Shown here: positions 20,287-37,106 of the stretch, one piece after another
How the letters are laid out: the number at the start of each line of letters is the position of its first letter
How positions within the stretch are numbered: the stretch's first letter is position 1
NCBI GenBank assembly: GCA_026707325.1
Contig: JAPOXA010000066.1
Span: 1 to 64,000, forward strand
Direction: 5' to 3'
Source of the DNA: Acidobacteriota bacterium
GTDB lineage: Bacteria; Acidobacteriota; Thermoanaerobaculia; Multivoradales; Multivoraceae
DNA length: 64,000 bases
The notes under the pieces: generated by a model
Database searches by the model: none
What the model was told of the DNA's origin: nothing
Seen by the model: only the letters and a program-made list of their open reading frames with translations
Made by a program: the position numbers and the translations under genes

Positions 20287-22554
20287 ATGCAGAGACCCAC
20301 GCGAATCGCTCCGGCACTGGCCCTCATTCTCGTCGCGGCCGTGCCGGCAACCGGCATCCAGGAAGCAGCGTCCGGCGTCGAGCGTCCCACGATGGCCGCC
20401 ACCCGGGTCGAGCAGGGTCCCAACGTCGACGGCGATCTGAGCGACCGGGCCTGGCAGGCGTCCGAGGTCGGCAGCGACTTCATGCAACACGAACCGCTCG
20501 ACGGCGTGCCGGCGACCGAGCAGACGGAAGTCCGGGTCGTTTTCACGGACAGCACGATCTACTTCGGCATCACCGCGTTCGACGCGAATCCGGACGCGAT
20601 CATCGCGAAGGAGATGGAGCGGGACAGCCGCATCTTCCAGGACGACTCGATCATCCTGCTACTGGACACCTTCTACGATCGGCGGAACGCGTACGCCTTC
20701 GAAACGAACCTGAACGGCGCAAGGACCGACACCCTGGTCACCGACGAAGGCCGCGACCTGAACCTGGAATGGGACGGCATCTGGTCCGTCGCGTCCCGGA
20801 AGACCGCTGCAGGCTGGACCGCCGAGATCGCCATTCCCATCTCGACGCTGCGTTTCGATCCGGCGGCTCCCGCCTGGGGCTTCAACGTCCAGCGCTACAT
20901 TGCGCACAAGCGCGAGATGACCCACTGGTCGGGTCTGCCCCGCGAAGTCGGCGTACTCGGTCAGGTCGGCTCCGAGGTCCAGCCCGTGCACCGGGTGTCC
21001 ATGGCCGGCGAACTGACCGGGCTGACCGCGCTCAACCAGTCGGCGCAGCTTCAGATCAAGCCCTATGTCATCGGCGACGTCAGCGAGGATCCCCGCCTCG
21101 ACCTGGACCCGGCCACCGACGGCGACTACGGCCTGGACCTGAAGTGGGGCGTCACCCGTTCCCTGGCCCTCGACCTGACGTACAACACGGACTTCGCCGA
21201 GGTCGAGGTCGACGAGCTGCAAACGAACCTCACCCGGTTCTCGCTCTACTTCCCCGAGAAGCGCGACTTCTTCCTCGAGAACGCCGGAATCTTCGACTTC
21301 GGCCCTCCTCACCGCCGCTTCTACGAACCGCCGGTGCTCAAGGCGTTCTTCTCGCGGCGAGTCGGTCTGGACGCGGGGCGGCAGGTACCGATCGACTGGG
21401 GGGCCCGCCTGACCGGGCGCGTGGGCGGCTGGGACATCGGCGTCCTGCGGGTCGCGACGGCCGGCCTCGAGAAGAACGGTGGAGCCCTGCCTCCGAACGC
21501 GTTCACGGTCGCCCGCCTGAAGCGAAACGTCGGCGAGCGGTCATCGATCGGCGCGATGCTCACCGAAGCGGCGCCCGACGGGGAACTGGCGAATCGGGTC
21601 GCCGGTGTCGACTTCGTCTACAAGCCGGGCCCGAAGGTGATCTTCGGCGGCTTCTGGTCCAGCAGCGGCATCAGCGAGGAGCCGTCCGCCAGTTCCGGGA
21701 GCGCCACGTCAGACGATTCCGCCGACGGCGGCGAATCGGCCTACGGACTCAACTTCGACTACCAGGGCCGCGCGCTGACCGTGTTCCTGGACGCCCAGGA
21801 GATCGAGAAGGACTACGACACCAAGGCCGGCTTCCTCCTGCGCCGGAACGTCCGTCATCTGAATCCAATGGTCCAGTGGTTGCCCCGGATCGACCGGGGC
21901 TCCGTCCGCTCCTGGTTCACGGAACTGAACGTCGACTACTACGAGACCCTGGACGACGGCGAGTTGGAAACCCGGCGGATCCAGTTCTCGCCCATCGGCA
22001 TGCGAATGACCACCGAGGACCGGTGGCGGCTGGGCTACGTCCACGAAACGGAGAACCTGGTCGCGCCCTTCGAAGTGTCGCCCGGAGTCGTGATCCCACC
22101 GGGACGCTACGAGTTCGACACGATCGAGGCAGCCAGCTTTACCAACCAGAGCCGCCTGCTCGGCTTCCGCGGGGTCATCGGCGCCGGCGACTTCTACAAC
22201 GGCACCCAGACCTCAGGCCGCGTCACCTTCACTCTCCGCCTCTCGAAGAACCTGCAGACGGAAACCCGCTGGGTCTTCAACGATGTCGAACTGCCCCAGG
22301 GCGCCTTCGACGTCGGCCTCTACAGCCAGCTCGTGAACTTCACGTTCACCCCGAACCTGCGGCTGAACACGATCATCCAGTACAACGACCACTCCGGCGA
22401 CCTCGGAACGAACATCCGCCTGCACTGGATCTACAGGCCCGGCTCCGACCTGTTCGTCGTCTACAACGAGAACTGGATGGCAGAGGACCTGCGCTACCGG
22501 CAGAGCACTCACCGCCAGATCGCAGTCAAGTTCACCTATCTGATCCAGCCGTAG
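20287..22554 (+). CDS. DUF5916 outer-membrane barrel protein with CBM9-like N-terminus (copy 2)
   Basis: The 755-residue tandem paralogue of the preceding gene follows 3 bases after its stop. Nearly the whole length aligns. The blocks EPLDGVPATEQTEVRVVF, ALDLTYNTDFAEVEVDELQT, FYEPPVLK.FFSRRVGL and the last 60 residues are almost identical, whereas the signal peptide and the loop near residue 470 (a serine/glycine-rich insertion of about 7 residues) differ. This points to a duplication followed by divergence of exposed loops, which may alter ligand choice. A more distant third member lies at 41613 on the other strand. Function and location are inferred as for copy 1. The stop is followed by the promoter-like sequence of the helicase gene. 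Confidence 0.88.
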   Translation: MQRPTRIAPALALILVAAVPATGIQEAASGVERPTMAATRVEQGPNVDGDLSDRAWQASEVGSDFMQHEPLDGVPATEQTEVRVVFTDSTIYFGITAFDANPDAIIAKEMERDSRIFQDDSIILLLDTFYDRRNAYAFETNLNGARTDTLVTDEGRDLNLEWDGIWSVASRKTAAGWTAEIAIPISTLRFDPAAPAWGFNVQRYIAHKREMTHWSGLPREVGVLGQVGSEVQPVHRVSMAGELTGLTALNQSAQLQIKPYVIGDVSEDPRLDLDPATDGDYGLDLKWGVTRSLALDLTYNTDFAEVEVDELQTNLTRFSLYFPEKRDFFLENAGIFDFGPPHRRFYEPPVLKAFFSRRVGLDAGRQVPIDWGARLTGRVGGWDIGVLRVATAGLEKNGGALPPNAFTVARLKRNVGERSSIGAMLTEAAPDGELANRVAGVDFVYKPGPKVIFGGFWSSSGISEEPSASSGSATSDDSADGGESAYGLNFDYQGRALTVFLDAQEIEKDYDTKAGFLLRRNVRHLNPMVQWLPRIDRGSVRSWFTELNVDYYETLDDGELETRRIQFSPIGMRMTTEDRWRLGYVHETENLVAPFEVSPGVVIPPGRYEFDTIEAASFTNQSRLLGFRGVIGAGDFYNGTQTSGRVTFTLRLSKNLQTETRWVFNDVELPQGAFDVGLYSQLVNFTFTPNLRLNTIIQYNDHSGDLGTNIRLHWIYRPGSDLFVVYNENWMAEDLRYRQSTHRQIAVKFTYLIQP

Positions 22555-26494: not shown

Positions 26495-26537
26495 AAGGGC
26501 CTTCGGAACCGTCAATCGGTTCCGAAGGCCCTTTTGC
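26495..26537 (+). terminator. Rho-independent terminator-like hairpin
   Basis: A perfect 17-bp inverted repeat, AAGGGCCTTCGGAACCG (26495-26511) with its complement at 26517-26533, has a TCAAT loop and is followed by TTTT-G. A smaller hairpin (CAGCCGG/CCGGCTG, loop TTCTT, 26471-26489) lies just before it. It falls between the helicase gene and the peptide locus and probably separates their transcripts. The U tract is short. Confidence 0.65.
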
Positions 26538-26629: not shown

Positions 26630-26851
26630 ATGACGTCCCCGAACCTCCCACCGAATCTCCGCACACCGCGAACCAGACCGCACGCCGGTCATCGGCTGCG
26701 CGGATGGAACCCCCGACTCTCCCAGCCTCCGGCCAGCGCCCTCGAAGCACGCCTGGCCCGCGCGTTCCACATGCTCGGCGCTCCGTCCGCGCCACTCGTC
26801 TCGATGCTGCACAGCCGGTCCACCGGCCTGGCGGGAAGGCGGCGGCGATGA
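26630..26851 (+). CDS. Possible small first gene of the peptide operon, unknown
   Basis: A 73-codon frame begins at an ATG with GGAG 7 bases upstream and ends in an ATGA overlap with the thioredoxin-like gene. The predicted product is proline and arginine rich, with one helical stretch (LEARLARAFHMLGAPSAPLV). It has no signal peptide and no double-glycine motif. The overlap geometry and position in the operon support a real gene, but third-position GC is lower than in neighbours, and a second open frame from 26617 runs in phase into the next gene. It could instead be untranslated leader. Confidence 0.3.
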   Translation: MTSPNLPPNLRTPRTRPHAGHRLRGWNPRLSQPPASALEARLARAFHMLGAPSAPLVSMLHSRSTGLAGRRRR

Positions 26852-27354
26852 ACCGGCGCCGTCTGGCCACCGCTGCCATCGTCGTGGCCGTTCTCGCCCC
26901 CCTCGGGGGTCTGCTCTGGTTCGAATCCGGGATCCGCGCCCGGCAGGCCCAGCGCCCGGAAGTCGGCGCGATGTTCCCCGCGCTGCCGGGCTTCGCGGAC
27001 GGCGAGACCCTGCCGGCCGCTCCCGGCCGGCTCCGGGTCGTGACCTTCGCCAGGGCCGGCTGCGGGAACTGTGACCGCACCATCACCGCCCTGCGGCGCA
27101 TGGCCCGGACCGAGGGTCCGACCTTCGACCTGATCGCGGTCGTCGCCGGCTCGGGTTCGCCCGAACTCGACGGCGACGGCGTCCACGCGGCCATCGCCGA
27201 TCCGGACGGCGCCGTCTCCAGGCGCTTCGGCGTCGTCCACGTACCGCTGGTGTTCCTGGTCGACGAGCAGTCCCGGATCCTCGCGGTCAGCACCGGAGAA
27301 CGTCCAGACACCGCCTGGCGCTCCTTTCTGGAATCCGGAAGCGATGCGCTCTGA
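26848..27354 (+). CDS. Membrane-anchored thioredoxin-like protein
   Basis: The 168-residue protein has a basic start (MNRRR), one hydrophobic segment (residues ~7-25) and a thioredoxin fold placed outside the membrane by the positive-inside rule. The redox motif is CGNC (Cys72, Cys75) in ARAGCGNCDRT, followed by the cis-proline region VVHVPLVFLVDEQ. The fold resembles TlpA/AhpC-TSA-like proteins. It would reduce, oxidise or shuffle disulfides in exported proteins. It sits directly before a C39 peptidase, with an 11-base overlap, and upstream of four peptides that carry two or four cysteines, so action on those peptides is a good inference. An in-frame extension to 26617 exists but would bury the membrane anchor. 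Confidence 0.8.
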   Translation: MNRRRLATAAIVVAVLAPLGGLLWFESGIRARQAQRPEVGAMFPALPGFADGETLPAAPGRLRVVTFARAGCGNCDRTITALRRMARTEGPTFDLIAVVAGSGSPELDGDGVHAAIADPDGAVSRRFGVVHVPLVFLVDEQSRILAVSTGERPDTAWRSFLESGSDAL

Positions 27355-27964
27355 GCGTTTCCCGTTCCGCCCCCCGCACGCGGCGGCCGCCGGCCTGCTG
27401 GTTGCCGCCGGTCTCGTGACGGTCGCTGCCAGGGCCCTTGGGCCGACCATGGACCGGCTCGCCTGGGCCGCCGCGCTCGACCCGTCGGCGCCGGCCCCGG
27501 GCGAGATCGTTCGCCAGCAAAGGCGCTCCGACTGCGGACCGGCGGCCCTGAAGATGGTCCTCGACCACTGGGGCATCGAGGACACGACCCTCGCCGAACT
27601 CGAGATCGCGACCGGAACCGGCCCGGACGGCACCAGCCTGCTGGCGCTCAAGAAGGCGGCGGAGGAACGGGGCGTGACGAGCCAGGGCCTCCGGCTTCCC
27701 GTCCAGCGGCTTCGCGACATCCCGCTGCCCGCGATCGCTCACGTCCACGGCGACCACTTCGTCGTCATCCGCAGCGCCGGCGACGAACTCGTCATCGACG
27801 ACCCTTCCCTCGGGCGGCTGCGCATGAGTTCCAGGACCTTCGAACGGTCCTGGGACGGCGTCGTTCTCGCCTTTACCAGCGGCCCGCCACCGATTCCCCG
27901 GACGGCCACGATGCCGTCCGTTTCCCCCCAACCCACAACCCTTGAAGGAGATAGCCCTCGATGA
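27344..27964 (+). CDS. Stand-alone membrane-anchored C39-family peptidase
   Basis: The 206-residue protein has an arginine-rich start, one hydrophobic segment (~13-33) and a C39-like cysteine peptidase domain. Cys64 lies in RRSDCGPAALKMVLDHWG with a Gln five residues before it for the oxyanion hole, His138 lies in HGDHFVVI, and Asp153 in IDDPSLG. C39 domains normally form the cytoplasmic N-terminus of bacteriocin ABC transporters and cut after double-glycine motifs. Here there is no transporter fusion, and the topology puts the active site outside the membrane. Three peptides with double-glycine-type motifs follow immediately. The gene overlaps the thioredoxin gene by 11 bases and the first peptide by 4 (ATGA). 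Confidence 0.85.
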   Translation: MRSERFPFRPPHAAAAGLLVAAGLVTVAARALGPTMDRLAWAAALDPSAPAPGEIVRQQRRSDCGPAALKMVLDHWGIEDTTLAELEIATGTGPDGTSLLALKKAAEERGVTSQGLRLPVQRLRDIPLPAIAHVHGDHFVVIRSAGDELVIDDPSLGRLRMSSRTFERSWDGVVLAFTSGPPPIPRTATMPSVSPQPTTLEGDSPR

Positions 27965-28278
27965 AACTCCGCATTGCACTTCTCTCCGCCTTGTTCCTTC
28001 TCGTCGCCGGAACCGCAATGGCCACCCCGACGGCCGGCGAGGCGCCGGACTCGGGCGACCTCGCGCTGGTGGCCACCTGGGACCTCGGGCCGGTCGCCGC
28101 CCATGACGGCTACGCCCTCCGGCCGGAGGCGCCGGTCCAAACGGCCTGGTACTTCCCGGTGCCCTGCGACGCCCCACCCTTTCCCGGGCCGGGCCAGCCC
28201 TTCCCGCTTCCTCTGCCGTTCCCGAACCCCTGGCCCGGTCCCACCGACCAGTGCATTCCCATCCCCCTTCCCTTCTAG
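27961..28278 (+). CDS. Secreted proline-rich small protein, candidate peptide product
   Basis: The 105-residue product has a Sec signal peptide (MKLRIALLSALFLLVAGTAM, cut near residue 21). The C-terminal 40 residues are extremely proline/phenylalanine rich, with FPVPC at 65-69 and a second Cys98, allowing one disulfide that closes a loop of prolines. No clear double-glycine-type motif is seen, unlike the next three peptides. A strong AAGGAG lies 10 bases before the ATG, which overlaps the peptidase stop. It is read as part of the operon. It could be a proline-rich antimicrobial-like peptide or an accessory protein. Nothing in the sequence decides between them. Confidence 0.7.
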   Translation: MKLRIALLSALFLLVAGTAMATPTAGEAPDSGDLALVATWDLGPVAAHDGYALRPEAPVQTAWYFPVPCDAPPFPGPGQPFPLPLPFPNPWPGPTDQCIPIPLPF

Positions 28279-28314
28279 CGCCCCTGCCAATCGCAACGCT
28301 GAAAGGAAAGCGAA

Positions 28315-28488
28315 ATGAATGTCACGTCAACCCTGATCGCGAACCTGCCCGAGGCAGGCCTCGCGACTGTCACCGGCGGAGTCGACTGGGTCGTCGACTT
28401 CAACTGCTGGGCGCTGGCGACCATGGTCGACAGCGCGTTTCCCGGCCTGGGCACCCTCATCGCCCTTCACTGCTACATCCCGCTCTGA
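28315..28488 (+). CDS. Bacteriocin-like peptide with double-glycine leader
   Basis: This 57-codon gene is preceded by AAAGGAAAG. The leader of 22 residues ends LPEAGLATVTGG, matching the double-glycine consensus at positions -12 (Leu), -7 (Leu), -4 (Val) and -2/-1 (Gly-Gly). The Glu is at -10 rather than -8. The predicted core of 35 residues (starting VDWVVDFNCW) is hydrophobic and has Cys31 and Cys53, which could form one disulfide as in class II bacteriocins. There is no Sec signal peptide, so export would need an ABC system, or the short leader may itself act as the signal. The adjacent C39 peptidase and ABC genes make it a likely processed peptide. Confidence 0.72.
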   Translation: MNVTSTLIANLPEAGLATVTGGVDWVVDFNCWALATMVDSAFPGLGTLIALHCYIPL

Positions 28489-28550
28489 CTTCGCGAACCG
28501 GCTTACTCGCAGTCCAGAACCAACCAACACCAAGAAAGGACTCCGAACAA

Positions 28551-28889
28551 ATGAAACCACTCACATTCCTCGTCGCCCTTCTACTACTGCTCGGCGGCGG
28601 TTCCGCTGCCTCAGCGTCGACCGGCCTTGACACTGCGATCAACACCGCCATCCCGAAACTCTCGCTTGACGGCGTTTCGCCGCTCACGCTGGCCGAGATG
28701 TCCGCGCTGACGGGAAGCGCACCTAGCTGGGTGCAGGCCGGCTGCGCCGCGATCGGCGGCTTTACCGGCGGACGCGGAGCCGTGCGACAAATCGCCAAAC
28801 AACTCGGGAAGCGGGTCGTCATCAGCACGGTGTGCCCCGTATGCGGAACCGCAATCACCATCGCAGCCGTAGGCTGTCTCTTTTTCTAG
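28551..28889 (+). CDS. Peptide precursor with Sec signal plus internal GS double-glycine-type motif
   Basis: The 112-residue precursor begins with a Sec signal (MKPLTFLVALLLLLGGGSAA). After a ~25-residue spacer comes LTLAEMSALTGS (residues 45-56), which matches the double-glycine leader consensus at -12 Leu, -8 Glu, -7 Met, -4 Leu and -2 Gly, with Ser at -1. The predicted 56-residue core has four cysteines (65, 95, 98, 109), a glycine-rich AAIGGFTGGRG segment, a basic KQLGKR segment and a hydrophobic CLFF end. The ribosome site is AGAAAGGA. Two successive targeting signals in one precursor are unusual and fit cutting by the adjacent membrane-anchored C39 peptidase outside the cytoplasm. Confidence 0.78.
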   Translation: MKPLTFLVALLLLLGGGSAASASTGLDTAINTAIPKLSLDGVSPLTLAEMSALTGSAPSWVQAGCAAIGGFTGGRGAVRQIAKQLGKRVVISTVCPVCGTAITIAAVGCLFF

Positions 28890-28952
28890 TCGGGGGGCCG
28901 CGCGAGAGTCAACTCCCGTGCTCCCCCATCCAACCCACGGAAAGGAAACCAT

Positions 28953-29249
28953 ATGAAGACACCAATCTCCGTTCTCGTTGTCGCCGCGGTCACGCTGGCG
29001 CCACTGACAGGGTCATTCACTGCGTCAATCGCCGACATCGGCTCGCAGTCGAGTCCGGAAGACACTATTCGCGTCATCTCGGACGAGACCGCGGCGAGGA
29101 TTGAAGGGGCACTGGCCCGGAAGTGGAAGTGCGCCATCACCTCGTTCTCAATTGGAGTCGGTCTGCTGACGATTGCGCCCGCGTTTGGCGGGGTCCCCGC
29201 TATCGCCGCACCCGCCTTCTTCAACGGCGCGGCGTTCTGCCTCATCTGA
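28953..29249 (+). CDS. Peptide precursor with Sec signal plus internal GA double-glycine-type motif
   Basis: The 98-residue precursor starts with a Sec-like signal (MKTPISVLVVAAVTLAPLTG). Residues 42-53, ISDETAARIEGA, fit the double-glycine leader consensus (-12 Ile, -11 Ser, -7 Ala, -4 Ile, -2 Gly, -1 Ala). Cutting there would release a 45-residue core starting LARKWKC, cationic at its N-terminus and then hydrophobic and glycine rich, with Cys60 and Cys96 near the two ends. GAAAGGAAA precedes the ATG. It is the last peptide gene before the first permease, 83 bases downstream. The design repeats that of the preceding gene although the cores are not alike, as in multi-peptide bacteriocin loci. 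Confidence 0.78.
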   Translation: MKTPISVLVVAAVTLAPLTGSFTASIADIGSQSSPEDTIRVISDETAARIEGALARKWKCAITSFSIGVGLLTIAPAFGGVPAIAAPAFFNGAAFCLI

Positions 29250-29332
29250 CCAAGGCGACCACCACTGCGTTCTTGGGGGCGGATAGCCTCCGCCCCCAGG
29301 AACCACAACCGCCCAACCCGGAAGAAGAACGA

Positions 29333-30991
29333 ATGACGACGACTGGAATGAGGCGGCTCCCAGCCCGCAGAATCGGCGCCTTATGCCATGCCTACGTAAC
29401 TGTCTGGAGAAAGACCATGCAGGAGAATCGCTCGACCGTTCTCCTGACCCTCCTCGCGATCCCGAACGTCGCCATCGCGTTCTTCCTGTCCGTCTTCCTG
29501 CCGCGGTTGATCTTCGGACTGGAGGACGCCGCGCTGCGGCGAGGGCTGCTGACGGTCGCCCTTGCCCTAGTGGCCCTCGTCTGGCTCTTTGCCCAGTTGT
29601 TCCTCCAGCGGTCCGTCACCTGGCTGCTGAACATCAGGGAACTCAGTCCACTTCCGTTCGGCTTCAACACCCTCTACCGGCTGCGGTTGGCAGGCTACCT
29701 GGGTGGCGCCTGGCTTCTTGCGCTCGGCTTGGCCGCGCCCTGGTTCGCCGTGACGCGGTCCAACGGCCTGCTCGGCCTGACGATGACGACAGTGGCTATC
29801 GCTCTGGCGGTCGTGATTCAGGGCCAAATCGTCTCCATCGTGGCGAGTCAGCGCGACCGGCTGGTCGAGGGGCTGTTCGGTTCGGCCGTCGTGCTCGCTG
29901 CCATCAGCGCCATCTACCTCGGACTCTACTGGGGGGTTCTGGTGAAGGCGGGCGAGTCGAGTCCCGACGACCTGCTGGGGTGGGTGAGCCATTCGGTCGC
30001 GATTCGCATCGGCGCCTTCACTCCCGCCGGACTCCTCGCCGGCATGCTGGACGACCCGGATGGCGCATGGCGAAACGGAGCTCGCCTTCTGGGCCTCTGC
30101 ACCTACGCCGCCGTCATCGGCACCTGCGACCTGGGGCTGCTGCGCAGGTTGCAGTTCGATTCACCCTCGGGCGCACCGCAGGTCAAACACCCGACCTTGC
30201 CGCTCCCGGCCTTGCTGCGTCGCTTGCGCGCGCTGTCGCCGGGCGGCGTTTTGACCCTTATCGAGATCGAAAGCGGTGCCAGAAACCGCGCTATCCGATG
30301 GTCGATGCTCATCGCGCTTGCGCTCTTCGGCTTTCTTGTCCTTGTAGTAGACGATCCGGTTGTCGCTGTCGCTGGTTCACTCACCTTTGCATGCATGACC
30401 CTCACCGGACACCGCGGCGAAAGAACCCTGCCGACGGGTCGTCTCTGGTCCGAGTCCTTCGCGCTTCCGGTTACTCCGGCTCGCATCCTCCGAGCGATGG
30501 CTCGCGCGCCGTCTCTGGTCGCGATCTGCTTGGCCGGTGCGGCGTTCGCCGTGTGTTTCTTGCAGTTCGGCTGGTTCGGCTCGCTCCATGTTGGCTACCT
30601 CGTTCTTCATTGCTCGGTCGCGATCTTCTACTCCGAAGCTGCCTTCGCGTGGATCGACGCGCGCTGGCAGACTCCGACTGGAGCAGTGGAACCAGACACT
30701 CGCGCAGGGAAAGTACTGACTCGAAACCTGCTGGGCTTCGGCCTGTTGCTTCCCTTCTTCCTCACGCTGTTTCTCTTCACGTACTACGAAGGTGCTCCGA
30801 ACCCGTTTGCAATGAGCATCGCCGGTACGGTCCACGCCGCCCTGGCCGTCGGAGCAGGGCTGGCTTTCCGTTCATCGACGAGACGCCTCGTCGATTCCCG
30901 GGGGCTTGACGCGCTCCTGGGACGGGACGACTCCGAGGCAGGCGCAGCTCTTCCGCCAGCCTCCGTCGACACGCCGTGCAGGAATGTTTGA
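29333..30991 (+). CDS. ABC-2-like exporter permease 1 of the peptide locus
   Basis: The 552-residue polytopic protein has about twelve hydrophobic segments, six before and six after a basic central region near residue 300. It has no ATPase motif of its own. Blocks VTWLLNIRELSPLPFGFNTLY and FTPAGLLAGMLDDP are shared with the two permeases downstream (VTWLLDLEDLLRLPVGF, YTPPGLVAGIVHEP), so all three are paralogues, this one the most distant. A permease role rests on topology, on paralogy and on the ABC ATPase at 34535. The precise family is not identified. The start has GGAAGAAG upstream. It follows the last peptide gene by 83 bases and ends at element B1. Confidence 0.75.
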   Translation: MTTTGMRRLPARRIGALCHAYVTVWRKTMQENRSTVLLTLLAIPNVAIAFFLSVFLPRLIFGLEDAALRRGLLTVALALVALVWLFAQLFLQRSVTWLLNIRELSPLPFGFNTLYRLRLAGYLGGAWLLALGLAAPWFAVTRSNGLLGLTMTTVAIALAVVIQGQIVSIVASQRDRLVEGLFGSAVVLAAISAIYLGLYWGVLVKAGESSPDDLLGWVSHSVAIRIGAFTPAGLLAGMLDDPDGAWRNGARLLGLCTYAAVIGTCDLGLLRRLQFDSPSGAPQVKHPTLPLPALLRRLRALSPGGVLTLIEIESGARNRAIRWSMLIALALFGFLVLVVDDPVVAVAGSLTFACMTLTGHRGERTLPTGRLWSESFALPVTPARILRAMARAPSLVAICLAGAAFAVCFLQFGWFGSLHVGYLVLHCSVAIFYSEAAFAWIDARWQTPTGAVEPDTRAGKVLTRNLLGFGLLLPFFLTLFLFTYYEGAPNPFAMSIAGTVHAALAVGAGLAFRSSTRRLVDSRGLDALLGRDDSEAGAALPPASVDTPCRNV

Positions 30992-31191
30992 CGGACGCCA
31001 TCCCAGCGCGCTAGCGTCCGTCTGTTGGTCGTCAGAGGCGCAGTGGGCCTGCGAGCCGGACCCCCTGCCAGACCTAGCCGCCGCCCCTGGGCTCAGGGTC
31101 GCTCCCTGCGTCGGGCAAGTCGGCGGGGGGTCTCGTTTCTCCTGCGCAGAGCGACCGATTCGGCCCGCCACCAGTCCAGGTGCCGGCCCAC
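30985..31191 (+). repeat. Structured intergenic repeat B, copy B1
   Basis: This copy aligns with B2 at 36889. Both start TGTTTGACGGAC, share GTGGGCCTGCGAGCCGG (31043-31059 here) and, exactly 54 bases after the start of that block, share GGTCGCTCCC. GTGGGCC (31043-31049) can pair with GGCCCAC (31185-31191), and GACCCCC (31059-31065) with GGGGGTC (31126-31132). A promoter-like TTGACG-N18-TAGCGT lies at its 5' end, overlapping the permease stop. It may be a promoter with a structured leader for the downstream genes, a small RNA, or a duplication scar. About 240 bases here carry no gene. Confidence 0.55.
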
Positions 31192-31230
31192 CTTTCCTCA
31201 GAGCCGGCTAGAGCGACACACCAGGACTCG

Positions 31231-32889
31231 ATGGCGACGTTCACGCACCCGGGTAGCCGGGCCGATCTGCTGCTGACGCTCGCGCGGCTCGCCTTGCCGG
31301 ACGCCGTGCGGCGGGCCAACCAATCGTTGACGGTGGCGATCCCGGTTGCCGTCCTGTTTCTCGTGTTCGCGACGGTCGCCACTCTGGCGCTGCTCACGGC
31401 GATCTTCGCCATCGAGAGCGACGTCCTGCGGGGGAATCTCCTCAGCCTGATCGCCTGCTCCGTGACGGCGATCGCGTTGCTCGCCCAAGTGCTGCTTCGT
31501 GCGCCCGTGACCTGGCTGCTCGACCTGGAGGACCTGCTGCGGCTTCCCGTTGGCTTCCGGGACCTGTACGTACTCCGTTTTGCTCTCAGCACGATCGGCT
31601 ACTGGCTCCCCGTTCTCGGTCCCGCCGGCGTCTACCTCGCCGTCGCAAGATCGGGAGGCGTCAGCGGAGCGCCGATCACACTGCTCGCCATTCTGAGCCT
31701 GGTCTGGATCTTCGGCCGCACCGCGGCGATCCTGTCGCTTCTCGTCAACCGCTCGGTCGAAGGCGGACTCGGCACGCTGGCCATGGTGGTGATCATGACT
31801 GCCTGCCAAGGCGCGATTCTCTTCGGCTCGCTGGCGCTCGGCGGCGAGCTCGATTCCGAAGGGATCACTCGGATGATCGAGGAATCCGCTGTTCTCGACG
31901 GCCTCGGCTACACGCCGCCCGGGCTGGTCGCCGGCATCGTCCACGAACCGGGGCCTTCGTTGCCGAATCTGGCGAGACTCGGCGGCCTGATGGCCGTTCT
32001 CGGCGCCTTGGCCGTGGTGGAGTACCGGCTCCTTCTTCGTAGCTACCTGGAGCGCCCCGGCGGTGACCGGCGAGTCGCTTCCGGGGTGCTTCCGCTGACC
32101 CGAATACTCCGAAACTCGCGCCGTCTCACTCCCATTGGAACTCTCTCGGCGCTCGAAATGGAATGCCTGTTGCGCCTCAAACCAGCAAGGCTGCTTCTGG
32201 CAATCGCGGCCGCCTTCGCCCTGGTGTGGATACCGGCCCAAGCCGGTCTCACTGTCGGTCTGGCTGGGGTCATCGGTCTTGCCCTTCACGGTTTCCGAGT
32301 CGAGAAGCAGCCGCCGACCTGCTACGTATGGAGGGAATCGCTCGGCCTGCCCCTCACAGTCCCCCAGATCTTCCGCGCAACCGGCCGCGCGCCCGGCGTG
32401 ATGAGCGTCTTCGTTCTTGCGTTCATCCTGGGTCTGACGCCGCTCGACTGGTTCGGCTGGGGCTTCTTCGTGGTTGCGTCCTGCCTGATGCTCGCCGGCC
32501 TCCTCCTGGCATACGCCGCACACGGCCTGATTCAGGTCTACTGGCCCCAACGCAGTGCCGGCCCGAGCCACGAGACGAATGCCACCAAGTTCGCGGCGTC
32601 TCTCCTCGTACCGCAGGTCGCCTTTGCTCCAGCACTCCTCTCCTTCGCCCTGTACATTCTCTACGCTCGGGAGCGTCTCAGCGCTCTCACCGCCGGGTTC
32701 ATCGCAACGACAGTCCTCCTCCTCGCCGCCGCGGCCGCATACGCCTCTCGGAGACGGCAGGTTCGGGTGCTCAACGCGCGCGGGACTGAACTCCTGCTGG
32801 CGGATCCGCCAGAAACCGCACCGGCAACGTCCGACCAGGCGCCCGACAGAGCGACTGACGGCACGGTGCGGAGGCCAGGCACGACCTGA
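31231..32889 (+). CDS. ABC-2-like exporter permease 2 of the peptide locus
   Basis: The 552-residue membrane protein has about twelve hydrophobic segments and is a tandem paralogue of the following gene, with long identical stretches such as LVWIFGR.AAILSLLVNRSVEG and RFALSTIGYWLPVLGPA, seen at DNA level as well. The shared VTWLLDLEDLLRLPVGF block links it also to permease 1. No ATP-binding motif is present. It probably pairs with the ABC ATPase at 34535 to export or release a product of the locus. The ATG at MATFTHPGSRADLLLT is chosen because the next paralogue starts at the same point. There is no strong ribosome site. Element B1 lies just upstream. The last ~25 residues are polar. Confidence 0.75.
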   Translation: MATFTHPGSRADLLLTLARLALPDAVRRANQSLTVAIPVAVLFLVFATVATLALLTAIFAIESDVLRGNLLSLIACSVTAIALLAQVLLRAPVTWLLDLEDLLRLPVGFRDLYVLRFALSTIGYWLPVLGPAGVYLAVARSGGVSGAPITLLAILSLVWIFGRTAAILSLLVNRSVEGGLGTLAMVVIMTACQGAILFGSLALGGELDSEGITRMIEESAVLDGLGYTPPGLVAGIVHEPGPSLPNLARLGGLMAVLGALAVVEYRLLLRSYLERPGGDRRVASGVLPLTRILRNSRRLTPIGTLSALEMECLLRLKPARLLLAIAAAFALVWIPAQAGLTVGLAGVIGLALHGFRVEKQPPTCYVWRESLGLPLTVPQIFRATGRAPGVMSVFVLAFILGLTPLDWFGWGFFVVASCLMLAGLLLAYAAHGLIQVYWPQRSAGPSHETNATKFAASLLVPQVAFAPALLSFALYILYARERLSALTAGFIATTVLLLAAAAAYASRRRQVRVLNARGTELLLADPPETAPATSDQAPDRATDGTVRRPGTT

Positions 32890-32896
32890 GGTCTCC

Positions 32897-34483
32897 ATGG
32901 CACCGATTGGCAAACCCGGTAGCCGGGCCGATCTGCTGCTGACCCTCGCGCGGCTGGTCCTGCCGGACGCCGTCCGGCGGAGCAAGCAGCCGCTGGCGGT
33001 GGCGATCTTCGTTGCCATCCTGTTCCTCGTGTTCGCGACTGCCGCGACCCTGGGGCTGCTTCCGGCGGTCTTCGCCATCGAGGGCGCCGCCTTGCGGAGA
33101 AACCTCCTGAGCCTGATCGCCTGCTCCGTGACGGCCATCGCGTTGCTCGTTCAGGTGGTGCTTCGAGTGCCCGTGACCTGGTTGCTCGATCTGGAGGACC
33201 TGCTGCGGCTGCCGGTCGGCTTCCGGGACTTGTACGGTCTCCGGTTCGCACTGAGCACGATCGGATACTGGCTCCCCGTTCTCGGTCCCGCCACCGTTTA
33301 CCTCACCGTGATGAGGTCGGGGAGCGTCGGTGGAGTCCCGATCACCCTGCTCGGCATCCTGAGCCTGGTCTGGATCTTCGGCCGCGCCGCGGCGATCCTG
33401 TCGCTTCTCGTCAACCGCTCGGTCGAAGGCAAGCTCGGCGCCCTGGCCCTGGTGGCCATCACGGCTGCCGTCTACGGCGCGATTCTTCTCGGTGGCATGG
33501 CCTTCGGCGGCGAACTCAATTCCGACGGGATTGTCCGGTCAGTCGAGGAATCCGCGGTGCTCGGCGGCCTCAGCTACACGCCGCCCGGGCTTGTCGCCGG
33601 CATCGTCCACGAACCGGGTCCTTCGACGTCGAATCTGGCGAAACTCGGCAGCCTGTTCGCGACTCTCGGCGTGTTGGCGATGCTGGAGAACCGGCTCCTG
33701 CTTCGGGGCTACCTGGAACGCCCCGGCGGCGACCGGCGTGCTGCTTCCTGCAGCCTGCCGGTGGCCAGACTGCTCCGCAAGGCGAAGCGTCTCACTCCGA
33801 CGGGCGTCCTCACGCTGATCGAGATCGAGTGCCTCCTGCGTCTGAAGCCGGCTCGTCTGGTTCTCGCGACGGTTCTGGGGTTCGCCCTCGTCCTGATACC
33901 CACTCTGGGCGGTTTCGCGTTGGGTCCGGCCGCGATTCTCGGCGTCTTTCTGAACGACCTCCGCGTGAGCAAGCAGCCCCCGACCTGCTACGCATGGCGG
34001 GAGTCGCTCACGCTGCCGCTCCCGGTCTGGCGCGTCTTCAGCGCGTCGGGCAGCGCCGTGAACGTGGTGATTCTTCTCCTGTTCGCGTTCCTCCTGGGAT
34101 TGGCATCGCTTGACTGGTTCGGCTGGCCGTTCCTTGTCGTCGCGATCTGCCTGATGCTCGCGACATTCCTCATGGCTACCGGCGGTTACAGCCTGATGCA
34201 GCTCCGTTGGCCTGGACGCAACGATGGGTTCATCAACGATCTCGACGGCGCCAAGCTCGTGGCCGCCTTGGTGGTGGGGCATCTCATGATCGGTCCAGGA
34301 ATCCTCTGCGCCGTTCTCTGGGAGCTCCTTGCAAGTCAGCGCATGACGCCGGCGACGGCCGCGCTCATCGCGGTCGGCGTACTGCTCCTCGCCGCAGCGA
34401 CCGCCCTGGCCTCTCGTCGAAGGCGTAGGGAGGTGCTCCAGGCCCGCGGCCGCGAACTCCTTCTCAAGGACCCGTCCCACTAG
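32897..34483 (+). CDS. ABC-2-like exporter permease 3 of the peptide locus
   Basis: The 528-residue polytopic protein begins 7 bases after the previous stop. It is the product of a tandem duplication with permease 2. The N-terminal half (GSRADLLLTLARLVLPDAVRR, LEDLLRLPVGFRDLYGLRF) is nearly identical and the C-terminal half is more divergent. It lacks the polar tail of permease 2. Two such subunits could form a heterodimeric transmembrane unit with the single ATPase encoded next. The substrate is not shown by the sequence. The upstream peptides are the obvious candidates, but immunity or lipid transport are alternatives. The gap of 51 bases to the ATPase holds its AAGGAAG ribosome site. Confidence 0.75.
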   Translation: MAPIGKPGSRADLLLTLARLVLPDAVRRSKQPLAVAIFVAILFLVFATAATLGLLPAVFAIEGAALRRNLLSLIACSVTAIALLVQVVLRVPVTWLLDLEDLLRLPVGFRDLYGLRFALSTIGYWLPVLGPATVYLTVMRSGSVGGVPITLLGILSLVWIFGRAAAILSLLVNRSVEGKLGALALVAITAAVYGAILLGGMAFGGELNSDGIVRSVEESAVLGGLSYTPPGLVAGIVHEPGPSTSNLAKLGSLFATLGVLAMLENRLLLRGYLERPGGDRRAASCSLPVARLLRKAKRLTPTGVLTLIEIECLLRLKPARLVLATVLGFALVLIPTLGGFALGPAAILGVFLNDLRVSKQPPTCYAWRESLTLPLPVWRVFSASGSAVNVVILLLFAFLLGLASLDWFGWPFLVVAICLMLATFLMATGGYSLMQLRWPGRNDGFINDLDGAKLVAALVVGHLMIGPGILCAVLWELLASQRMTPATAALIAVGVLLLAAATALASRRRRREVLQARGRELLLKDPSH

Positions 34484-34534
34484 ACCCCTGCCCCTACCTC
34501 TACCGCCCCTGCAACCACAAGGAAGAACTCACGG

Positions 34535-35320
34535 ATGGAAGTAATCAAGGCAGAGAACCTGACCCGGTCGTACGGAGGCAACGTCGTCGTCGACGGCGTC
34601 GACCTGGACGTCCGGGCCGGACAGATCCTGGGCTTCGTCGGACCCAACGGGGCCGGGAAGACAACGACCTGGTCCATGCTGACCGGGGTGCTGAATCCCA
34701 CGAGCGGCACGGTCCGTCTGCTGGGCAGGCCGATGGACATCAACGACACGGACCTCAAGCAACAACTCGGCATCGTCCCCGACCACAGCGTGATGTTCGA
34801 GAGCCTGACCGGCGAGGAACTGCTGCTGTCGTATGCCCGCATCTACGGCCTGGGCCGCGAGGACGCCGGGCAGCGAACGGACGAGGCGCTCGCGGTCTTC
34901 GACCTCGAGGACGCCGCGAAGCGGCCGATCACGACCTACTCCCACGGCATGAGGAAGAAGATCCGCCTGGCCGCGGCGACCCTTCACGCGCCGCGGGTCC
35001 TGTTCCTCGACGAGCCGTTCGAGGGAATGGACGCTCTGAGCGCCCGCACCGTCATGTCCATCCTGCAGCAGATGGCCGAGCAGGGAGCAGCCATCTTCCT
35101 CACATCCCACATGCTCGACTACGTGGAGCGCGTGTCGACCCACATCGCCGTCATCAGGGACGGCAAGGTCCTCCTGTCGTGCTCCCGGGAGGAGTTCCGC
35201 GAACTACCCGCCGCCGAAGGGGAAGACGGCGCCGGGCGGCTCGAGAACCTCATTCTCAGTATCTCCAGGCGCGAGAGGTTCTCCCGCCTTTCCTGGATCG
35301 GCAACAGGAGTGCGACATGA
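34535..35320 (+). CDS. ABC transporter ATP-binding protein of the peptide locus
   Basis: The 261-residue nucleotide-binding subunit has Walker A GPNGAGKTTT (36-45), a Q-loop region near KQQLGIVPD, the signature YSHGMRKKIRLAAA, Walker B VLFLDEPFEGMD and the switch His in FLTSHMLDYVE. The signature SHGMRKK, in place of LSGGQ, is typical of ABC-2 exporters such as those for antibiotics and Na+ (NatA/CcmA-like). It is the only ATPase beside three permeases, so it must energise one or more of them. The stop overlaps the start of the first Yip1-like gene by 4 bases, which indicates coupling. A ribosome site AAGGAAG lies upstream. Confidence 0.92.
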   Translation: MEVIKAENLTRSYGGNVVVDGVDLDVRAGQILGFVGPNGAGKTTTWSMLTGVLNPTSGTVRLLGRPMDINDTDLKQQLGIVPDHSVMFESLTGEELLLSYARIYGLGREDAGQRTDEALAVFDLEDAAKRPITTYSHGMRKKIRLAAATLHAPRVLFLDEPFEGMDALSARTVMSILQQMAEQGAAIFLTSHMLDYVERVSTHIAVIRDGKVLLSCSREEFRELPAAEGEDGAGRLENLILSISRRERFSRLSWIGNRSAT

Positions 35321-36096
35321 CCGAGCACCCAGGCAGCATCAACGGCGAACGCAACACCGAAACCGGCGGCAACCACTCACAGGGCCGGAACGCCTGGCCC
35401 ACGGCGCTGCTCGGGCTCTTCGCGTGGCCGCGGCAGAGCTTCGAGATCATCCGGCACCGCAACCCATGGCTCGCAACGCTGCTCCTGGTCCTGGCCGGAA
35501 ACGCCGCCCTGGCCCTGGCCTCGGCGCCGCTGGGCCTCCAGGCCATGCGGGCCCAGCTGACGGAACGGATGCCGGGCAACCCGGAGCAGGTCGACGCCAT
35601 GATGGGGCAGTTCGAACAGGCAGCCGCGGCAGGGCGCTGGCTGGCGATGGCCACCGGTCCCCTCTCCGTGGCCGTCGCACTCGCGATTCAGACCGTGCTC
35701 GTGTGGCTCCTGGCGATCGCCCTCCAGGGACGGCCCCGATTTGTCCAGTCCCTCTCCCTGATGGTCCACCTGGCCGTGATCACCCACCTCAAGAGCTGGG
35801 CCAACTTCCTTCTCCTCCACGTCCGTGGCACCGACGCGATCCGATCGCAACTGGACCTCCAGGCGCCGATGGGACTCGACCTGCTGCTGGCCGGCGACAA
35901 CGCGACGCTCAACGTCGTTTACGCGAGCATCAATCCGTTCACGGTCTGGTTTCTCGCGTTGCTCGGCCTGGGCGCCGCCGCGGTGTTCGAGGTCCCGGAG
36001 CGCAAGGCCTGGCTGCTGGCCGCCATCTACTGGGCAACGACGACGGCCTTCACAGCCGCGGCGACCGGTCTGGCGGCCCGCCTCATGCCGACCTGA
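35317..36096 (+). CDS. Yip1-domain membrane protein 1
   Basis: The 259-residue protein has a polar N-terminal tail of ~35 residues and about five hydrophobic segments. The pattern WPRQSFEIIRHRNPWLATLLLV followed by later LLGLGAAAVFEVPERKAW fits bacterial Yip1-type proteins, which are membrane proteins of unclear function often placed beside ABC transporters. It is translationally coupled to the ATPase (ATGA). The next gene is a paralogue with the same opening and closing blocks. It could be an accessory subunit, or an immunity protein against the locus peptides. Both are inference. Confidence 0.72.
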   Translation: MTEHPGSINGERNTETGGNHSQGRNAWPTALLGLFAWPRQSFEIIRHRNPWLATLLLVLAGNAALALASAPLGLQAMRAQLTERMPGNPEQVDAMMGQFEQAAAAGRWLAMATGPLSVAVALAIQTVLVWLLAIALQGRPRFVQSLSLMVHLAVITHLKSWANFLLLHVRGTDAIRSQLDLQAPMGLDLLLAGDNATLNVVYASINPFTVWFLALLGLGAAAVFEVPERKAWLLAAIYWATTTAFTAAATGLAARLMPT

Positions 36097-36140
36097 CGCA
36101 GCCGTCCCGGAGGTCGATCCCGAGTCGATACAGTCCCCCA

Positions 36141-36839
36141 ATGGGCGAGCCACCGGAGGCCAGCCGTCACCTCTGGTTCAAAGCCCTGATCTGGATCTTC
36201 ACCGCTCCGCGGAAGAGCTTCGTCGTCATCCGCGAGCACCATCCGTGGGGTGCCGGCCTGGCATTAGGCATCTCCCTGATGCTCCTGGCCGGCCTGCTGA
36301 CCGCATGGTGGTTCGGCGATGCGATGGAGAGCATCGGTGACTCCCTCGAGATTCCCTACGGGATGGTCTCGTTCTTCTTCGCGGCCATCCCGCTTGCGCT
36401 GTTGTTCGAGGCACTCGTCCTCCGACTCCTGGCGGCGGCCCTGAAGGGTCGGGCGAGCATCGAACAGTGCCTGTCGCTGGCGCTGCACATCGGCCTGATC
36501 AGCGCCGTGGGGATCGTAGCCCGCTCGCTGTTGAGAACCACCCAGGTCGACGGCATCCTCGACTTGCAGCGCAACATCCTCGACAGGGAAGCCGGCTCCA
36601 GGCTCGACCTGATCGGTCTTGTAGCCGACATGGCGCCGGGCGCCATTCTCGACCTGATGATCCACTCCTTCGCGTTCGTCTGGTCCTTTCTCCTGCTGGG
36701 GCTGGGCGCCGCCGCGGTGTTCCGCCTTTCCAGGTCAGCGGGCTTCGCCATCGCCGCGATCAACTGGGCGGCCGGCAAGGTGCTGGAGATGGGTCTGGCG
36801 GGCCTGGCGGTCGTGGCGATGACGGCGTCCCTGCCCTGA
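36141..36839 (+). CDS. Yip1-domain membrane protein 2
   Basis: The 232-residue paralogue of the preceding protein starts with WFKALIWIFTAPRKSFVVIR, has about five hydrophobic segments and ends with LLGLGAAAVFRLSRSAGF and a last helix. It follows the first copy by 44 bases, with no strong ribosome site. The pair closes the run of genes that begins with the thioredoxin-like protein. The block LLGLGAAAVF is the best-conserved segment between the two. A heteromeric membrane unit or recent duplication is likely. Beyond the family name no function can be given. Element B2 starts 50 bases after its stop. Confidence 0.7.
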   Translation: MGEPPEASRHLWFKALIWIFTAPRKSFVVIREHHPWGAGLALGISLMLLAGLLTAWWFGDAMESIGDSLEIPYGMVSFFFAAIPLALLFEALVLRLLAAALKGRASIEQCLSLALHIGLISAVGIVARSLLRTTQVDGILDLQRNILDREAGSRLDLIGLVADMAPGAILDLMIHSFAFVWSFLLLGLGAAAVFRLSRSAGFAIAAINWAAGKVLEMGLAGLAVVAMTASLP

Positions 36840-36888: not shown

Positions 36889-37044
36889 TGTTTGACGGAC
36901 CATCGACCGCGCGGTAGCTTCTCGCCGTTGGTTGTCGTCGCGCCGTGGGCCTGCGAGCCGGGTCTCCTGCCGAATACAACAGTCGACACCAGGCGCCAGG
37001 TCGCTCCCGGCGCTCGGCGAATAGGCAGGGCGTTTCGTGCCCAC
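36889..37044 (+). repeat. Structured intergenic repeat B, copy B2
   Basis: This is the second copy of the element at 30985. TGTTTGACGGAC is followed by the 17-base block GTGGGCCTGCGAGCCGG (36945-36961) and GGTCGCTCCC (36999-37008) at the same 54-base spacing. GTGGGC (36945-36950) can pair with GCCCAC (37039-37044), and CCTGCC (36966-36971) with GGCAGG (37024-37029). The inner stem differs in sequence from that of B1 yet still pairs. TTGACG-N17-TAGCTT at its 5' end resembles a promoter. The 312 bases between the Yip1 gene and the next start hold only this element and a second promoter. Confidence 0.55.
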
Positions 37045-37106
37045 TGTGCATGGCGACCAACAAGGCCCGGCGCCAACCCTCTCTGCCTGCCTGAGCCGCG
37101 GCATGC

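Follow-up and report, generated by a model that had tools for sequence, protein, structure and literature searches.

In a 64,000-nucleotide stretch of an Acidobacteriota genome (contig JAPOXA010000066.1; the window, below, is this whole stretch), we describe a locus that probably makes several disulfide-bridged, very hydrophobic, bacteriocin-like peptides. These would be exported by Sec first and cut by a C39 peptidase second, with an ATP-binding cassette (ABC) transporter and Yip1 proteins protecting the producer. The locus (26848-36839, + strand) encodes, all on one strand, a thioredoxin-like protein (trx), a C39 peptidase, four small peptides (pepA to pepD), three ABC-2 permeases (perm1 to perm3), one ATPase and two Yip1 proteins (yip1 and yip2). 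An initial annotation of the window had listed this gene set, its order and its single strand, and had counted 2, 2, 4 and 2 Cys in the four peptides. All of this was borne out, and the gene order recurs in other genomes of the genus. Ordinarily, a double-glycine leader is recognized by a transporter while still in the cytoplasm. The proposed route reverses the usual order for bacteriocins, with export first and cutting and folding outside afterwards.

We postulate that the route has four steps. Sec would move a precursor, composed of a signal peptide, a spacer, a double-glycine leader and a core running from Cys to Cys, over the inner membrane. An anchored, periplasmic C39 peptidase would then cut after G[G/A/T/S] and free a core of about 33-59 residues, and an anchored thioredoxin-like protein would make or correct a disulfide between the two ends of the core. 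Lastly, the ATPase, the tandem ABC-2 permease or permeases and Yip1 would form a pump that keeps the membrane-active peptides from harming the cell that makes them; the same pump may export precursors that have no signal peptide, for example that of pepB. The sequences themselves show the parts, their order and conservation, the leader rule, the Cys pattern, the turnover of the peptides and the lack of another C39 transporter in the genus. From them we infer the enzymatic and transport steps and the antimicrobial activity, and we take the self-protective role of the ATPase, ABC-2 and Yip1 proteins from analogy. The export-then-cut order is strengthened by the precursors that carry both a signal peptide and a double-glycine leader, by the nearly universal even number of Cys, and by the lack of an ABC-fused C39 in 21 genomes. 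Export followed by cutting and disulfide formation outside had been proposed in the initial annotation, and that part is supported. The ABC and Yip1 proteins are, by analogy with YknWXYZ, better read as self-protection than as the main exporter.

Precursors with a signal peptide and a double-glycine leader

Nearly all of the peptides, in the window and in its relatives, have a Sec-type signal peptide, then a canonical C39 double-glycine leader (GG, GA, GT or GS), then the core. This combination, which did not figure in the initial annotation, is the strongest clue and bears most of the argument. In the window it is found in pepC (28551..28889, + strand; leader LTLAEMSALTGS, 56-amino-acid core, four Cys) and pepD (28953..29249, + strand; leader ISDETAARIEGA, 45-amino-acid core, two Cys). 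Homologues of the two were absent from the 20 remaining genomes of the genus, and locus L074 holds the cores that most resemble theirs. pepB (28315..28488, + strand) is a double-glycine-leader precursor (LPEAGLATVTGG) with a 35-amino-acid core, two Cys and no recognizable signal peptide. It belongs to a 12-member family, and its type occurs in 13 loci if the diverged form in L040 is counted. pepA (27961..28278, + strand), the first peptide in the loci, is a Pro-rich secreted peptide with a signal peptide, two Cys and no clear double-glycine leader; 20 peptides of this type were found, and the family has a signal peptide, then a Pro-rich C-terminus with 2-5 Cys, again with no such leader. The possibility that the peptides would be missing from homologous loci had been raised beforehand. 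Instead, two to four peptides were present in every locus of the genus in which the interval between C39 and permease was examined.

By sequence, the leaders match the published C39 recognition code, but at a place predicted to lie beyond the inner membrane. The published rule calls for hydrophobic residues at -4, -7 and -12 and for GG, GA or GS (PMC10885120), and L-12, E-8 and L-7 contribute to leader recognition (PMC6363468). We aligned the leaders of 24 peptide families (50% identity level), with the G[GAST] that precedes the first Cys of the core as the sole anchor, and used the published -12/-7/-4 spacing as the pattern. Residues were hydrophobic above background at -12 (23 of 24 families, p 6e-9), -7 (19 of 24, p 7e-5) and -4 (20 of 24, p 1e-5) and at no other position, with D, E or S in between; LSDEELAAVSGG and LTDAELVSVEGT are examples, as are the leaders of pepC and pepD. 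The full pattern, which adds to the leader a Cys just past the cut site and a Cys at the C-terminus, was present in 52 of the 57 signal-peptide-bearing peptides that are not Pro-rich, compared with none of 12 comparable open reading frames (ORFs) elsewhere.

The cores (33-59 residues) are very hydrophobic and rich in Gly and Ala. Their first Cys is at residue 2-12, their last Cys is on average 2.7 residues from the end (12.1 in shuffled sequences, standard deviation 1.8), and the number of Cys is even in 25 of 26 core families. Even numbers of Cys, placed near both ends, fit with a redox partner. GxxxG motifs were not above the level expected from composition (34 versus 29.4, standard deviation 4.7). 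A low-stringency single-linkage clustering of the peptides was dropped, as it lumped most of them together.

The anchored peptidase and the thioredoxin-like protein

The C39 peptidase (27344..27964, + strand; 206 amino acids; Pfam Peptidase_C39, 8e-32) stands alone and has an anchor at about residues 13-31. Q58, C64, H138 and D153-P154 are invariant among 11 diverse relatives, and in all 11 basic residues are followed by a hydrophobic N-terminal anchor and then the domain. This layout, with one hydrophobic segment, is shared by the C39s of the genus and those of other phyla. Because a basic N-terminus precedes the single hydrophobic segment, the domain would face the periplasm. For C39, this agrees with the earlier proposal that the C39 and redox proteins each have an N-terminal anchor and an active domain outside. 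The closest relative of known structure is LahT150 (6mpz, crystallized with leader bound; profile match 3.5e-28), and the predicted fold of the window peptidase superimposes on 6mpz at 1.4 A root-mean-square deviation.

The resemblance of this domain to ABC-fused peptidases, together with an ABC transporter in the same locus, could indicate a split peptidase-transporter that works by the classic cytoplasmic route. We find this hardly credible. The N-terminal anchor is conserved with basic residues on its N side, the permease is of the ABC-2 type and not the ABC-B type of peptidase-transporters, and the signal peptides precede the leaders, so that a cytoplasmic cut would deprive the core of its export signal. 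A family search found 28 C39 matches in the 21 genomes of the genus. Every one is in a frame of at most 299 amino acids, and thus no ABC-fused C39 was found among these genomes.

A functional-amyloid or fiber system like Fap, in which an exported C39 licenses fiber assembly, is also very improbable in our view. FapD is an exported and active C39 (PMC5557850), and the NCBIfam FapD model (NF058616) matches the window peptidase at 4e-12. However, that match scores 46 bits against a cut-off of 330, and in our tree the anchored C39s group together (support 92/93), separately from the ABC-fused C39s and from the FapD-like C39s of soil Acidobacteriota (100/99). These short, hydrophobic, Cys-bridged peptides have no Asn/Gln-rich repeats, and we saw no FapF-like pore among the genes of the locus.

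Export followed by C39 cutting would leave disulfide formation to trx (26848..27354, + strand; best start ATG 26848, stop 27354), a predicted membrane-anchored protein with a TlpA/DsbE-like thioredoxin fold and a CGNC motif. Its family matches are weak (Redoxin 7e-4, DsbE 6e-4), and the closest PDB chain is a DsbE (4e-4). An orthologue, 66-93% identical, lies immediately 5' of the C39 gene in the main loci of the genus that were examined.

Two other C39 genes are unusual. The genome of the window has a second stand-alone C39 (L003:9886-10341; contig C200:49885-50340) that has no anchor, is 54% identical over the domain and groups with the C39s of the genus in the tree; it lies amid many small ORFs of unknown function on a 107-kilobase contig with a phage- or plasmid-like look. 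At L079:9830-10702 (the same place as L128), the C39 and the first peptide share one frame with no intervening stop. Here the peptidase may be fused to its substrate, or a stop may simply be missing; in L129, a close relative, the two genes are separate.

The transporter genes, conservation and peptide turnover

The permeases are probably tandem ABC-2 permeases. perm2 (31231..32889, + strand) and perm3 (32897..34483, + strand) are 65-66% identical, and perm1 (29333..30991, + strand) is divergent, about 29-34% identical to either. The permeases matched no Pfam or NCBIfam family, a PDB sequence search with a permease profile found nothing, and Foldseek alone gave no significant match. We aligned an AlphaFold2 model of perm2 (predicted local distance difference test score 73) with VIA-align. 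The Z scores were 11.6 to NosY and CcmB (C-terminal half) and 10.2 over both halves to a mycobacterial ABC efflux pump, values in a range (10-12) to be read against the 13 that mostly helical models can reach by chance. The top rows were consistently ABC-2 permeases, one of them spanning both halves. The assignment rests on these best alignments and on the match of both halves to the mycobacterial pump; the earlier description of the permeases as ABC-2-like thereby gains the backing of a predicted structure of moderate confidence. Downstream are an ATPase of the ABC-2 exporter type (34535..35320, + strand; Pfam ABC_tran 3e-30; NCBIfam drrA 3e-63, under its cut-off), yip1 (35317..36096, + strand; Pfam Yip1 1.7e-10) and yip2 (36141..36839, + strand; Pfam Yip1 2e-11; NCBIfam YknW_fam 1.3e-5, under its cut-off).

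These proteins might mainly extract or move the peptides rather than confer immunity, with the Sec, C39 and disulfide steps unchanged. This would give pepB-type precursors, which have a double-glycine leader and no signal peptide, the way out that they need; the genus has no other C39 transporter, and the number and type of permeases track the peptide set, modestly. We consider export as the main role rather unlikely, since most precursors already have signal peptides and the permease, ATPase and Yip1 genes are retained in loci without pepB. Furthermore, YknWXYZ, the studied Yip1-ABC pump, guards against a Sec-exported peptide. We therefore retain self-protection as the preferred role.

Some features of the loci connect peptides with permeases. 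In the window, perm1, the extra and divergent permease, is directly 3' of pepC and pepD, and the second-type locus L074 holds together the nearest cores to these two peptides and a near relative of perm1, the closest that we found. By eye, a strict pairing of each peptide set with one type of permease was striking, but it proved only modest once relatedness was controlled. In L035, L044, L048 and L051, one of two neighboring permease copies carries a premature TGA, frameshifts or deletions; this recurring damage looks as though that copy had become superfluous when the peptides changed.

Every one of the 21 genomes of the genus has the permease family, which was absent from the 51 others sampled in the order. 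The order of the main locus is fixed: the SNF2-helicase gene, then trx, C39, peptides, one to three permeases, the ATPase and one to three Yip1 genes, then gene 37137. Contig ends truncate one locus, and L053, a diverged locus of the second type, lies elsewhere. The arrangement is not due to chance, because the order recurs across the genus with both flanking genes. Those relatives that have names are sponge- and coral-type metagenome-assembled genomes of the Thermoanaerobaculia/'Holophagales', including 'Candidatus Multivorans thiocomprendens'; from these names we take sponges and corals to be the habitat of the genus.

Ratios of nonsynonymous to synonymous substitution (dN/dS) indicate that the machinery is under purifying selection and that the peptides evolve faster: 0.06 for the ATPase, 0.15 for C39 and 0.54 for trx, compared with 0.54 for pepA and about 0.97 (0.9-1) for pepB. 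Peptide sets are also swapped among species. For example, the SNF2 proteins of L034 and L035 are 97% alike and their peptide cores only 32% alike, whereas the cores of L034 and L046 are identical. Constrained machinery and swapped peptides point to a conserved maturation system that serves exchangeable peptides. It is unlikely that the peptides are signals or structural envelope peptides that mature by the same route, although the locus is fixed in the chromosome of a host-associated genus and two precursor families are constrained (dN/dS 0.38 and 0.44). The quick exchange of peptide sets, the several peptides per locus, the hydrophobic Gly/Ala-rich cores and the linked ABC-Yip1 genes fit antagonism better.

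The co-occurrence that the initial annotation had proposed to look for extends beyond the genus, to other classes of Acidobacteriota and to Ignavibacteriota. With looser profiles, trx, C39, two precursors with signal peptide and double-glycine leader, permease, ATPase and Yip1 were found in other Acidobacteriota (L079/L128 and L131), and less complete sets in L129, L130 and L132. An Ignavibacteriales metagenome-assembled genome (L078, Ignavibacteriota) has trx, C39, a peptide, two half-size permeases, ATPase and Yip1, and shorter versions occur in L076, L081 and L077 (a Poribacterium). In a phylum sample of 347 genomes, seven outside the genus carry C39s of the anchored clade; clear peptides were not seen for two of these seven (G264 and G234). 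We speculate, with a little less than even confidence, that a general route of Sec-exported dual-signal precursors, periplasmic C39 cutting, closure by a thioredoxin-like protein and ABC-2/Yip1 protection occurs in at least three diderm phyla.

A predicted intrinsic terminator of the upstream SNF2-helicase gene (26495..26534, + strand; a GC hairpin, then TTTTGCG; -34.6 kcal/mol, z -7.3) marks the upstream boundary and parts the locus from that gene. Of the ATGA overlaps noted before, there are two (C39/pepA, 4 nucleotides, and ATPase/yip1), in addition to an 11-base-pair overlap of trx and C39, and every peptide gene has a purine-rich ribosome-binding site. As to a transcription break between peptidase and peptides, which the initial annotation had considered, the 4-nucleotide C39/pepA overlap and the absence of any terminator between C39 and the peptide genes speak against one. 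A break further downstream may exist, since a conserved non-coding element, e1, precedes the perm2-perm3-ATPase-Yip1 genes; the ABC half may thus be a second transcription unit.

e1 (30992..31229, + strand) is a structured element directly 5' of perm2 that is 75-97% identical, with covariation, at the same place in loci of the genus. A second copy, e2 (36909..37075, + strand; 69% identical to e1), is 3' of the Yip1 genes. They are the only copies found in the genome, they enclose the perm2-perm3-ATPase-Yip1 genes, and they occupy the same two places in nearly all main loci of the genus. Their common hairpin is closed by GUUGGUCGUC/GGCGACCAAC, with compensatory change in 6 of 32 pairs (column-shuffle z -7.8). 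Neither has an Rfam match. They may be a regulatory leader or RNA, or the boundary of a cassette or of recombination. A strong RNA hairpin without a T-tract in the gap between the peptides and perm1 (29268..29306, + strand; -35.5 kcal/mol for 29250-29332, z -4.9) is a possible processing or attenuation site. A sigma-70 promoter scan found no promoter, an Rfam scan of the window gave no match, and PADLOC matched none of the six proteins tried. Near the locus, 20287-22554 and 41613-43844 encode a similar pair of large secreted proteins of the DUF5916/CBM9 type (Pfam was run on the first).

Several points weigh against the route as we propose it. The locus has no outer-membrane channel, which leaves release from a diderm cell unaccounted for, and the thioredoxin-like protein could reduce rather than oxidize. 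The simple Sec-C39 route misses some products, since pepB has a double-glycine leader without a signal peptide and pepA a signal peptide without the leader. The control set of 12 ORFs is small, the peptides outside the genus were partly recognized by the same signal-peptide and leader architecture, and signal peptides and topology were judged by hydropathy and charge. Lastly, the coupling of peptides and permeases among 19 loci is modest (partial Mantel r 0.31, p 0.006; r 0.22, p 0.034 without the window).

Comparison with known systems

If the proposed route is correct, leader removal is uncoupled from transport, and the same code is read outside by a stand-alone enzyme. The poorly understood exported C39 peptidases would gain canonical substrates. 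Were the route also general, its products would make up a large new class of bacteriocins, closed by disulfides, that do without peptidase-containing ABC transporters (PCATs). Such peptide families may escape mining tools keyed to ABC-fused C39s or to N-terminal double-glycine leaders, and they could shape the symbiont community in sponges and corals.

The PCATs of class II bacteriocins and microcins (LahT, ComA and CvaB) share with this system the C39 fold, the catalytic residues and the leader rule (-12, -7, -4 and GG/GA/GS), as well as small, often Cys-bridged cores and several precursors per locus. In contrast, the window C39 (206 amino acids) is unfused and anchored with its domain predicted to be outside, and a Sec signal precedes the leader in most precursors, only the pepB type lacking it. 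The ABC transporter here is of the ABC-2 type with a separate ATPase, and the genus is without a PCAT.

Stand-alone exported C39s are known from the Pseudomonas Fap amyloid (FapD) and a putative pilus system (FilB). FapD is active in the periplasm and needs its active-site Cys, and its target is unclear (PMC5557850). The window C39 is similar in its N-terminal anchor and intact catalytic residues, here known from the DNA. However, FapD belongs to another C39 clade, Fap proteins have no canonical C39 sites, whereas canonical leaders adjoin the window C39, and there are no amyloid substrates or FapF pore here. In soil-type Acidobacteriota (L140-L145), genes beside FapD-like C39s encode a signal peptide and then leader-like motifs, for example LNDAALDRVTAG and ISNEELDSQRGG. 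This suggests that targets of the FapD type may also bear a leader behind the signal peptide.

SDP is a 42-amino-acid toxin with one disulfide, and Bacillus is protected from it by YknWXYZ, which contains a Yip1 protein (PMC4887032). Here, too, a small hydrophobic Cys-bridged peptide is predicted, and an ABC ATPase, permease and Yip1 are encoded together. However, SDP has no C39 or double-glycine leader, and YknZ is of the MacB type with the adaptor YknX, whereas this locus has tandem ABC-2 permeases and no adaptor gene. Similarly, leaderless and circular bacteriocin clusters contain Yip1 genes, with an ABC transporter and Yip1 beside short hydrophobic peptides (PMC11580447), but those peptides have no double-glycine leader, C39 or thioredoxin partner.

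The initial annotation knew of no described system with this gene set, and in the open-access literature we likewise found no report of the full set or of dual-signal precursors; the exported stand-alone C39 does have a precedent in FapD (PMC5557850). Exported stand-alone C39s, bacteriocins with double-glycine leaders and ABC-Yip1 protection are each already known separately, and there is a fair chance that the system that combines them deserves a class of its own.

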